Origin: Alphaproteobacteria bacterium
GTDB taxonomy: Bacteria; Pseudomonadota; Alphaproteobacteria; Reyranellales; JAQSWP01
NCBI GenBank assembly: GCA_029266575.1
Contig: JAQSWP010000014.1
Location: 1 to 36,213, forward strand
Direction of reading: 5' to 3'
Length of the DNA stretch: 36,213 nucleotides
The translations under genes were made by a program, and so were the position numbers. Shown one piece after another: positions 4,543-10,405 of the stretch (position 1 is the first letter of the stretch; each line of letters begins with the position of its first letter). Under the pieces are notes generated by a model that saw only the letters and a program-made list of their open reading frames with translations, ran no database searches and was not told the DNA's origin.

Positions 4543-4911
4543 TACCGGCTGTCCGACGCGCAAGAGATTGCCGCAGGGATCGATGACGTAGAACTCGCGC
4601 ATGCCCCAGGGCTTGTCCTCGGGCCTGGTGATGCGCGCGCCGGGCGCCTGGGCGCGCCAGCGTTCGGACAGCGCATCGACATCGGTGCTGCGCACATAGG
4701 CGCCGGTGGCTTCGGCGATGGAGCGGTCCTCGGTCAGCCAGAAATGCAGCTCCGGCCCATCAGCGCCATGGCGCAGCAGCAGATAGTCTTCGTGGCGCGA
4801 GATCAGGGTGAAGTCGAGTTTCAGGTAGAAGGCAATGGTCTTGTCGAAGTCCAGCGACGCCAAGAGCGCGACGATGCTGTCGGGGGCGGGAATTTTCGGC
4901 GCGGCAACCAT
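4537..4911 (-). CDS. VOC-family (glyoxalase/bleomycin-resistance-like) protein
   Basis: A 124-residue single-module VOC protein. The two beta-alpha-beta-beta-beta repeats are visible: ALLASLDFDKTIAFYLKLDF with the paired ELHFWLTED strand, and WGMREFYVIDPCGNLLRVGQ at the end, typical of the glyoxalase/bleomycin-resistance fold with the late metal-binding Glu replaced around DPCGN. The open frame extends to 5022, but the upstream part overlaps the riboswitch leader on the other strand and looks non-coding; ATG 4911 gives the normal length. The stop codon lies inside the 4487-4542 inverted repeat. Whether it is an enzyme or a drug-binding protein cannot be told. Confidence 0.85.
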   Translation of the reverse strand: MVAAPKIPAPDSIVALLASLDFDKTIAFYLKLDFTLISRHEDYLLLRHGADGPELHFWLTEDRSIAEATGAYVRSTDVDALSERWRAQAPGARITRPEDKPWGMREFYVIDPCGNLLRVGQPVD

Positions 4912-5003
4912 GCCAGCGATGATTCCGCGCCCGCGGCAGCGACGCAAGACCGCGCCTTTTGTCGCGGCATCGCATTGCCGCTTCCCTGTGCATTGGCACA
5001 GCC

Positions 5004-5010
5004 CTATATC
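5004..5010 (+). promoter_or_regulatory. possible -10 element for the riboswitch transcript
   Basis: CTATATC at 5004-5010 would place transcription start near 5016, just ahead of the aptamer. No good -35 hexamer is seen at 17 bp, so this is weak. Confidence 0.25.
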
Positions 5011-5018
5011 AACACCAT

Positions 5019-5123
5019 CCATCGGGGAGTAGCCGCCCGCATCGAAGCGGGGCCTGCGTCAACACACTTGGGCGAGAGTCCATGGCGCAGGCAGGAGCCA
5101 AAAGCTTCTGGCGAGACCGCTGG
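5019..5123 (+). ncRNA. yybP-ykoY manganese riboswitch aptamer
   Basis: The leader of the GDT1-type exporter carries the conserved blocks of this family in order: GGGGAGTAG (5024-5032), GTCAACACACT (5058-5068) and GGCGAGACC (5110-5118). Supporting helices are present: a closing stem CCATCG/CGCTGG (5019-5024 with 5118-5123, one mismatch), CCCGC/GCGGG (5036-5050), CCTGCG/CGCAGG (5053-5058 with 5086-5091) and CAGGAGC/GCTTCTG (about 5093-5110). Family knowledge: the aptamer senses Mn2+ and usually switches on Mn-efflux genes. The downstream gene is such an exporter, so the assignment is consistent. Exact ends are my estimate by eye. Confidence 0.88.
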
Positions 5124-5154
5124 CATCGTCTTCCAAAGACCGGGCGGCAGGCCA

Positions 5155-5206
5155 GGGTCGGGCGGGAAGATGACGCCACGGTCATGGTCTCGCCCGGCCC
5201 CCGGAG
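5155..5206 (+). promoter_or_regulatory. probable riboswitch expression platform and Shine-Dalgarno
   Basis: GGGTCGGGCG (5155-5164) pairs fully, with one G-U, with CGCCCGGCCC (5191-5200), ending two bases before the Shine-Dalgarno GGAG (5203-5206). The overlapping GGTCTCGCC (5186-5194) is an exact complement of the aptamer core GGCGAGACC (5110-5118). The two helices share 5191-5194 and cannot coexist, which suggests a translational switch. The direction of switching is inferred from the family, not seen. Confidence 0.6.
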
Positions 5207-5212
5207 ATTTCC

Positions 5213-5773
5213 TTGGAATCGTTTTTTGCGTCGACGGGCGCCGTGGCGCTGGCCGAGATCGGCGACAAGACGCAGTTGCTGGCCCTCATGCTGGCCAGCC
5301 GCTATCGCAAACCGCTGCCGATCGCCTGCGGCATCCTGATCGCCACCCTGCTCAACCACGCGCTGGCCGCCTGGGGCGGCAGCGTGCTGGCCGGATTGCT
5401 GCAAGGACCATGGCTGCGCTGGATCGTCGGCTTCTCTTTCATCGCCATGGCGGCGTGGACTCTGATTCCCGACAGGCTCGATGCCGGCGACCAGCGTCGC
5501 TTCGACCGCTACGGCCCCTTGCTTGCCACCGCGATTTCCTTCTTCCTGGTCGAGATCGGCGACAAGACCCAGATCGCCACCGTGGCGCTGGCGGCGAAAT
5601 ACCAAGCCGTCGCGCTGGTCACCGCCGGCACCACGCTCGGCCTGATGCTGGCCAATGTGCCGATGCTGTGGCTGGGCAACAAGGCGGCCGGGAAACTACC
5701 GCTGCACTGGATCCGTTTTGCCGCCGCAGCGCTGTTCGCGGTGCTGGGCGTAGCGGCGTTGCTGTTTGCCTAG
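5213..5773 (+). CDS. GDT1/UPF0016 (TMEM165-like) manganese/calcium exporter
   Basis: A 186-residue membrane protein of the UPF0016/GDT1 family, with two homologous halves of about three transmembrane helices each. Each half holds the signature EIGDKT (residues 15-20 and 114-119), whose acidic residues bind the transported cation. Bacterial members export Mn2+ (MneA/MntX type), which agrees with the Mn2+ riboswitch in the leader. The start is a TTG at 5213, preceded by GGAG at 6 bases; the beginning MESFFASTGAVALAEIGDKTQ fits the family, so the start is well supported. It should protect the cell from excess manganese. The stop codon lies in a short inverted repeat shared with the convergent gene. 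Confidence 0.93.
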   Translation: MESFFASTGAVALAEIGDKTQLLALMLASRYRKPLPIACGILIATLLNHALAAWGGSVLAGLLQGPWLRWIVGFSFIAMAAWTLIPDRLDAGDQRRFDRYGPLLATAISFFLVEIGDKTQIATVALAAKYQAVALVTAGTTLGLMLANVPMLWLGNKAAGKLPLHWIRFAAAALFAVLGVAALLFA

Positions 5774-5797
5774 AGCGGATTCACACCTTTGCTCTAG
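5770..5797. terminator. short inverted repeat spanning two convergent stops
   Basis: CTAGAGC (5770-5776) and GCTCTAG (5791-5797) are exact reverse complements. Each arm contains one TAG stop: that of the exporter (5771-5773) and that of the convergent secreted protein (5794-5796). It may serve as a weak bidirectional 3' end; there is no T-run. Confidence 0.5.
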
Positions 5798-6687
5798 TTG
5801 ACCGGTTCTTCGATCAGCACCACTTCGGCCGGCACGATGCCGCGGCTGATGTCGAGACGATCGCCGATCACCGGCAGCAGCAGATTGTGATCGCCGATCA
5901 TGATGCGCAGGCCCGCGCCAACCACCGCAGCGGCCTCGCGCTTGCCGTCGGCCTGCCACAAGGTCAGGCGGCCGCCTTGTATCGCATTGGGCTTGTCCGT
6001 CTCCCAGATGAGCTTGACCTCGCGATACTTGTCGTCGATGCGCCCTTCCTGGCGCTGCAGCACCTTGATGCGCTGCATCGGCACGGCGGGCGAGGCATAG
6101 GTGATCAGCGCCAGCGAGTTCTGGCTCTTCAGCACCGTCTCGTGCGTCGCCGAATGGACGCCGTGCACGGCAACGAAGCGGAAGCCCAGCGGACCGGTGT
6201 TGGGGATTTCCATGCTCACCACCTGCGCCCCCGGGCTGGCGCCGGAGCTGGTGTAGAGCACCTTGCCGCTGGCGGCCGATACCGCCGAATAGGCATTGCT
6301 GGCGCCGCAACAGCCATAGGTCGGGATCATGATGCGCTCGCCCGAGATCCAGGCCTCGTGGCCGCCATAGGCGCCGCTCCACGCCTCAAGCTGGATGCCG
6401 TCAGCTTTCACCCGCCATGCCTTGGCCCGGATGGTACCGTCGGCGCCTTCCTTGGCCGTGGTGCGCACGACTTCCGATTCGAACTGCACGATCAGGCCGC
6501 GCTCCTCCGGCGCCACCGGATTGTGCGCGACATAGGCGAATTCGGTGTTGCGCGTGATCCAGGTGGTGGCGTCCTTCTCCACCTTGACTTCGATGCGCGA
6601 GGAGCCCTCGCGCGGTTGCGCGCCCAGCGACAGCGGCAGAGCCAGAACGAAGACGGAAGCGGCAAGGATACGGATCGAAGCAGACAT
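5794..6687 (-). CDS. secreted hypothetical protein
   Basis: A 297-residue protein I do not recognise. It begins with a clear Sec signal peptide (MSASIRILAASVFVLALPLSLGAQ), cut probably after AQ near residue 24, so it should be periplasmic. The mature part is rich in short beta strands and contains a Cys-Cys pair in PTYGCCGASN. No catalytic motif is evident. The start ATG at 6687 is preceded by GGGAGATTTCTTTA, a good ribosome-binding site. It is convergent with the Mn exporter and stands alone on its strand, about 115 bp from the next gene upstream. Function unknown. Confidence 0.8.
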   Translation of the reverse strand: MSASIRILAASVFVLALPLSLGAQPREGSSRIEVKVEKDATTWITRNTEFAYVAHNPVAPEERGLIVQFESEVVRTTAKEGADGTIRAKAWRVKADGIQLEAWSGAYGGHEAWISGERIMIPTYGCCGASNAYSAVSAASGKVLYTSSGASPGAQVVSMEIPNTGPLGFRFVAVHGVHSATHETVLKSQNSLALITYASPAVPMQRIKVLQRQEGRIDDKYREVKLIWETDKPNAIQGGRLTLWQADGKREAAAVVGAGLRIMIGDHNLLLPVIGDRLDISRGIVPAEVVLIEEPVN

Positions 6688-9628: not shown

Positions 9629-10405
9629 TCAACTCGCCGCGATCAGCCGCCCGCCCCCCGGCAGATCGATGAGGCGCGCTTCGACCTCGTAGGCCTGGCG
9701 CACGAAGTCTGGCGTCAGCACCTCGTCGGGTGCGCCGAGCGCGATCAGCCGGCCGGCGGCGAGCACCGCTACTCTATCGGCTAACAGCGCCTGGTTGAGG
9801 TCGTGCAGGATCGCCAGCACGCCGATGCCCTGCCCGACCTGCGCCCGCAGCAGTTTCAGCAACGCCAGCTGATGCTTGAGATCGAGCGCCGCCGTCGGCT
9901 CGTCGAGCAACAGATAGCGCGGTTCGGCGGCATCGCCACCGATGTCGAGCTGCGCCAGCACGCGCGCCAGGTTCACCCGCTGGCGCTCGCCGCCCGACAA
10001 GGTGGGCCAGGCGCGCTGGCTGAAGTCGCTCATGTCCACCGCCTCCAGCGCGCGGCTGGTGGCGATGCGATCCTGTATACGATCGGAACGGCCGCGATGC
10101 GGCAGGCGGCCAAGCTGCACCACCTGTTCCACCGTCAGCGAAAAAGCCAGCCGCGTTTCCTGCGGCAGCACGGCGCGGCGCAATGCCAGCGCCTCGGGAC
10201 CGATCTGCTTCAGCGTCTTGCCGTCGAGCGTGACTTTGCCATCTGCGATGCGCGCCTCGCCCGACAGCGCGCGCAACAAGGTCGATTTGCCGGCGCCATT
10301 GGGGCCGACCACCGCCAGCATCTCGCCCGGCCGCAAGGCCAGCGAGATGCCGTCGATCAGCCGCTTGCCGGCGACGGTCACGGAAACATTGTCGGTTCGC
10401 AGCAT
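9629..10405 (-). CDS. hmuV: haem ABC transporter ATP-binding protein HmuV
   Basis: A 258-residue ABC ATPase that powers haem import through HmuU. Walker A is GPNGAGKST (34-42), the signature is LSGGERQRVNLARVLAQ and Walker B is YLLLDEPTAALD, followed by the switch His in ILHDLNQ. Length and the FecE-like LGRLPHRGRSD insert fit HmuV. The start ATG at 10405 lies 3 bases after the hmuU stop, so translation is probably coupled. It is the last gene of the haem cluster; a REP-like palindrome follows between it and the convergent YkuD gene. Confidence 0.95.
   Translation of the reverse strand: MLRTDNVSVTVAGKRLIDGISLALRPGEMLAVVGPNGAGKSTLLRALSGEARIADGKVTLDGKTLKQIGPEALALRRAVLPQETRLAFSLTVEQVVQLGRLPHRGRSDRIQDRIATSRALEAVDMSDFSQRAWPTLSGGERQRVNLARVLAQLDIGGDAAEPRYLLLDEPTAALDLKHQLALLKLLRAQVGQGIGVLAILHDLNQALLADRVAVLAAGRLIALGAPDEVLTPDFVRQAYEVEARLIDLPGGGRLIAAS

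Follow-up and report, generated by a model that had tools for sequence, protein, structure and literature searches.

Manganese riboswitches of the yybP-ykoY class, their ligand and their association with GDT1 genes are already known. In described members, Mn2+ stabilizes the P1.1 helix against strand invasion, so that the aptamer strand is held and the downstream strand is released (PMC6754395, PMC11087558). The E. coli mntP leader is reported to be a Mn-ON switch acting at the ribosome-binding site (RBS), which Mn2+ makes accessible (PMC11647493). In Vibrio, the GDT1 gene mneA is induced by Mn (PMC13274385), and a UPF0016 gene was reported under a yybP-ykoY riboswitch in 328 of 333 screened strains (PMC7380456). 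We found no description of the expression platform analysed below in the literature that we searched, and we make no claim that it is unpublished.

The window, by which we mean the whole 36,213-nt stretch of alphaproteobacterial DNA that was analysed, contains a single Rfam match, to the yybP-ykoY Mn2+ aptamer RF00080 at 5012-5191 on the forward strand (71.2 bits, E = 7e-17; cmscan, Rfam 15). The score exceeds the gathering cut-off of 45 bits, and the match covers model positions 1-177 of 177, taking in the aptamer and part of the expression platform. It is also the only RF00080 match in the genome bin, a provisional count given that the bin is 81.9% complete. The switch helix P1.1 is formed by 5019-5025 (+) and 5117-5123 (+), with six of seven standard pairs (5022-5120 is U-C). 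Within the match, the L1 sequence GGGGAGTAGCC occupies 5024-5034 (+), and its terminal GCC (5032-5034) pairs with GGC at 5110-5112 to form P1.2. On its 3′ side, the aptamer core reads GGCGAGACC at 5110-5118 (+), a motif present in relatives that spans the 3′ strand of P1.2, the 3′ side of L1 and the first bases of the P1.1 3′ strand. Motifs typical of the class, as also seen in the relatives, are GGGGAGUAG in L1, GUCAACA in L3 and GCRAGACC in the 3′ core; the window leader (L001) carries all three, as GGGGAGTAG, GTCAACA and GCGAGACC.

The gene that begins 21 nt past the end of the match encodes a 186-aa, MneA-like cation transporter of the GDT1/UPF0016 (TMEM165-like) family (5213-5773 (+), TTG start; PF01169, E = 1.6e-42, with the domain in two copies), and no other GDT1 gene was found in the genome bin. 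The GDT1/UPF0016 family includes Mn exporters. A Shine-Dalgarno (SD) sequence, GGAG, lies at 5203-5206 (+) within CGGAGA (-6.6 kcal/mol to the anti-SD). A sequence-only reading of this DNA had proposed a manganese riboswitch of the yybP-ykoY type, which usually turns on Mn efflux, and both the covariance model and the PF01169 gene bear it out. The RNA ahead of the exporter gene is thus a standard yybP-ykoY manganese sensor, for which Mn2+ binding itself is predicted. Divergent from the riboswitch is a glyoxalase/bleomycin-resistance-like open reading frame (PF00903; 4537-5022 (-)), whose first ATG, as listed, lies within the 5′ end of the riboswitch; a more internal start is likelier. A search of 4850-5900 found no sigma-70-type promoter ahead of the riboswitch (0 found, 0.1 expected).

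For comparison, we collected leaders from related genomes. Under strict filters, RF00080 matches were present in 38 of 61 genomes of the same order (including the window's own), 26 of 190 in a class sample and 136 of 397 in a phylum sample. A scan with the GDT1 protein returned 80 loci, 51 of them with the aptamer motif and 50 of these before a GDT1 gene; the 29 motif-less loci and the one remaining were not used. From the phylum-sample matches, 80 further stretches were taken, which are part of those matches. This gave 169 loci with both the aptamer motif and a GDT1 gene (order set, 29; GDT1 scan, 50; class set, 17; phylum set, 73), and 39 further loci with the motif and no recognized GDT1 gene. 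Usable leaders came from 155 of the 169, as 14 were dropped (10 without a core by the motif pattern, 4 without a start); the two E. coli leaders, L111 and L112, were excluded from the set. A greedy 65% identity rule applied to the platform, which is not a phylogeny, placed the 155 leaders in 35 clusters, and pairing was assessed by a swap test that compares a leader's own partner with partners from other clusters. Among the genomes sampled, one (G262) holds two equal-scoring RF00080 copies 20 kb apart (C2:152205-152377 and C2:172457-172629) and a third elsewhere, and another (G028) has two matches about 1.3 kb apart (C12:8674-8848 and 10163-10344), perhaps serving two separately controlled genes. 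In Duganella radicis (L044), the distance from aptamer to start is about 110 nt longer than in relatives and looks like an insertion.

P1.1 covaries in this set (swap z = -7.6; own partner better than the median other in 32 of 35 clusters), and its 3′ strand is used twice. A second helix, X, joins 5115-5134 (+) to 5165-5183 (+) through 18 pairs with one bulge and one mismatch (duplex energy -31.4 kcal/mol). In relatives, the 3′ strand of X (X3) resembles the 5′ strand of P1.1 (GUCAUUGG in many), so that the P1.1 3′ strand at 5117-5123 has two possible partners and can enter either P1.1 or X. The pairing of X is strongly leader-specific by the swap test in fixed windows (z = -12.7; own partner favoured over the median other partner in 34 of 35 clusters; 0 of 10,000 permutations), and restriction to AGACC plus the P1.1 strand gave z = -8.1 (30 of 35 clusters). 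We prefer these fixed-window tests to the earlier swap tests, in which the X3 and Y segments had been picked for good own pairing, a bias in favour; as the X register is ungapped in the family tests, the bulged window leader is only approximately placed in them. Counted pair by pair, both-sided changes occur at ten positions, core+8 to core+17, and at none from core+2 to core+7, where the core hardly varies, so that these counts neither show nor exclude pairing of X into the core. Judged by this comparison of leaders, it is helix X that competes with the aptamer in a conserved way, re-using the P1.1 3′ strand.

The other conserved element of the platform is helix Y, which pairs 5155-5167 (+) with 5188-5200 (+) and ends 2 nt before the SD sequence. 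Of 300 shuffled sequences, 2 produced an uninterrupted helix of at least 13 pairs and 38 one of at least 10 pairs. Helix Y is conserved in relatives with many compensatory changes (swap z = -12.5 in fixed windows; own partner favoured over the median other partner in 34 of 35 clusters; 0 of 10,000 permutations) and adjoins the SD sequence. Its end lies a median of 13 nt upstream of the start codon (10-90% range, -17 to -9), and the TTG start at 5213 fits because Y ends at -13 in the window. In the 90 leaders with a clear SD sequence, Y stays outside it in 49, reaches 1-3 nt into it in 30 and further in 11. Downstream of the aptamer, the platform runs in the order X5 (including the P1.1 3′ strand), Y5, X3, Y3, SD and start, and the crossing order X5<Y5<X3<Y3 holds in 149 of 154 leaders. 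X and Y thus cross, and must be mutually exclusive or form a pseudoknot. They overlap at 5165-5167 in the window, where folding also places a small hairpin in the loop of Y (5170-5185 (+); 5170-5174 paired with 5181-5185) that takes up the X 3′ strand. Competing hairpins built from the riboswitch tail are, on the evidence of the compared leaders, a conserved design common to many relatives.

The sequence-only reading had described ten pairs of helix Y (5155-5164 with 5191-5200, two bases before GGAG), which we recover with one U-G pair (5158-5197) and extend to 13. It had overlooked helix X, which is longer and engages the same aptamer strand, and had proposed as the competing element a 9-bp helix between the core at 5110-5118 and its exact complement GGTCTCGCC at 5186-5194 (+). 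That complement is present, as is its overlap with helix Y at 5191-5194, and by chance an exact 9-base core complement arose in 10 of 5,000 dinucleotide shuffles of the 94 nt downstream (at least 8 bases in 35 of 5,000). However, an exact core complement of at least 8 bases occurs in 1 of 155 leaders, that of the window alone, and swap tests of the core against the pre-SD region were weak (z = -1.7 and -2.2 in fixed windows, -3.0 in a floating window). We therefore dropped the core helix as the family-wide main competitor in favour of helix X. In the window leader, it is a second option for the outer half of X and overlaps Y: GACC at 5115-5118 pairs with 5180-5183 (X) or with 5186-5189 (core helix), the inner part of X being unchanged. 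In L168 and its relatives, the strand before the core, GGGTTTGAC, is perfectly complemented by GTCAAACCC, which runs into Y3; this helix is of the same kind but arises from different sequence.

Our main reading, to which we assign a probability of roughly 60%, is of a yybP-ykoY Mn2+ riboswitch in which strand exchange between P1.1 and X, together with Y, lets Mn2+ turn translation of the GDT1 exporter ON. Without Mn2+, the P1.1 3′ strand (5117-5123) would be captured by a segment further downstream that copies the P1.1 5′ strand, giving helix X, whose base the core helix (5110-5118/5186-5194) could extend or replace in the window. With Mn2+, the docked aptamer would keep P1.1 closed and X blocked, and the released downstream segment would fold into helix Y (5155-5167/5188-5200), ending just before the SD sequence. 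In the metal-free folds of the window, the freed L1 strand is additionally paired with the Y3/SD region or with the start codon; Mn2+ should therefore expose the RBS and switch exporter translation ON. Such a sign suits an exporter and agrees with reports on Vibrio mneA at the RNA level (PMC13274385) and on mntP (PMC11647493).

Folding of the window leader gave minimum free energies of -119.2 kcal/mol for the free/Y state, -116.9 for inner X plus the core helix, -115.1 for X and -108.1 for P1.1 plus Y. The free/Y, core-helix and X states thus lie within about 4 kcal/mol of each other, and these energies make the competition proposed in the sequence-only reading energetically plausible in the window. 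The P1.1 state would need stabilization by about 11 kcal/mol in this model, in which tertiary and metal contributions are not represented. As a point against the main reading, the lowest-energy metal-free fold has Y present and X absent. Opening 5201-5222 takes 5.1 kcal/mol with P1.1 versus 10.1-10.7 kcal/mol in the free, X and core-helix states; the RBS is about 5 kcal/mol easier to open with P1.1, since without metal the folds engage the L1 strand around the SD sequence or start codon. In the window, this model predicts a more open RBS on aptamer formation, that is, an ON switch.

Control might instead act on transcription, with X serving in the absence of metal as a terminator or as a Rho- or pausing-dependent stop, P1.1 as the antiterminator and Y as a by-product near the RBS. 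The L. lactis and X. oryzae members have been described as transcriptional (PMC6754395, PMC11087558), an action of Rho on E. coli mntP has been reported (PMC11647493), and U-rich tracts follow X in some relatives (for example, L038, L040 and L093). However, at least six U in the 8 nt after X occur in only 10 of 155 leaders, so that X can seldom be an intrinsic terminator; in the window no U tract follows X and no intrinsic terminator (stable hairpin plus U tract) was found near the platform. Intrinsic termination at X is therefore unlikely here, and Rho- or pausing-dependent control may operate in the window. Termination would also have no need of a Y helix at a fixed distance from the start codon. 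We regard transcriptional control as unlikely, though worth keeping in view; the near-fixed spacing between Y and the start codon points to translation, which our data suggest is the level of control.

Alternatively, X and Y could form a single metal-free pseudoknot over the RBS, with Mn2+ breaking X, leaving hairpin Y and turning the gene ON. The crossing order in 149 of 154 leaders is as such a fold would have it, the two helices covary independently, and the loop from the end of X3 to Y3 has a median of 6 nt (10-90% range, 2-12). Yet a loop of 2-12 nt would be tight across a helix as long as X (18 pairs in the window), and in the window the overlap at 5165-5167 and the inner hairpin of Y, which consumes the X 3′ strand, both speak against coexistence. 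We consider the pseudoknot improbable.

Access to the RBS was also compared across the family by forcing either P1.1 or X. At the SD sequence, the P1.1-forced state was the more open one in 60 of 155 leaders and the less open one in 63; at -12..+9 the corresponding counts were 57 and 71 of 155. At -20..+9 it was more open in 29 and less open in 110 of 152 leaders, because Y sits there. With the aptamer 5′ part omitted, 47 of 57 leaders were less open at -18..+8 in the P1.1 state. It is very improbable that Mn2+ turns the gene OFF, with P1.1 preventing X and Y then hindering the ribosome: the -20..+9 result (29 of 35 clusters) and the simpler test without the aptamer 5′ part agree with this reading, but SD access is neutral across the family, the window fold predicts ON, Vibrio mneA is induced by Mn (PMC13274385), and a substrate that shuts off its own exporter makes little sense. 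Modelled folding is thus inconsistent in sign across the family, and sequence alone does not settle which hairpin turns the gene on. The translational switch of the sequence-only reading holds in its competing helices near the SD sequence, and translational ON is the likeliest outcome, although folding across the family gives no consistent sign. Its proposal that Mn2+ frees the aptamer strand is reversed, since Mn2+ is described as holding that strand in P1.1 (PMC6754395, PMC11087558).

Swap tests over 35 clusters (Y0:SD, W and L1:RBS) found no conserved partner of the SD sequence, which also weighs against the main reading. Y0, the segment before Y5, was rejected as an SD sequestrator (z = +0.6 in 11 clusters and -1.5 in 35 clusters; z = -1.6 in 52 leaders and -2.8 within one 7-member cluster), as was the local hairpin W between the segment before Y3 and the SD sequence (z = +2.1 over 52 leaders and +2.3 over 35 clusters). 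For L1, a conserved interaction with the start region or RBS was likewise dropped (z = +0.5), although the window's metal-free minimum-energy fold contains it. Nor did Y3 hide the SD sequence beyond chance, as the unpaired probability was 0.397 versus 0.413 in shuffles (20 clusters with an SD sequence). That the GDT1 leaders of Pseudomonadota share one undescribed platform, in which crossing, covarying X and Y helices work as a switch with three states or as a pseudoknot and not as a simple SD sequestrator, is a possibility that we raise only tentatively.

Among known systems, the E. coli mntP leader belongs to the same RF00080 aptamer family as the window, but mntP encodes a different exporter family from GDT1, and the X/Y arrangement is not obvious in its leader on comparison by eye. 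In the riboswitches described from L. lactis and X. oryzae, as in the window, P1.1 is the switch helix, whose 3′ strand is contested by a strand further downstream; those platforms are described as transcriptional terminators (PMC6754395, PMC11087558), whereas the window has no U tract and its conserved helix Y abuts the SD sequence. The Vibrio mneA leader places the same gene family under the same aptamer, with a mechanism that its authors leave open (PMC13274385). To these systems our analysis adds a comparative map of the platform, in which one aptamer strand has two covarying partners across 35 sequence clusters and a second helix stands at a near-fixed distance from the start codon, and the map points directly to mutants that could tell whether such exporters are regulated translationally, and with what sign.
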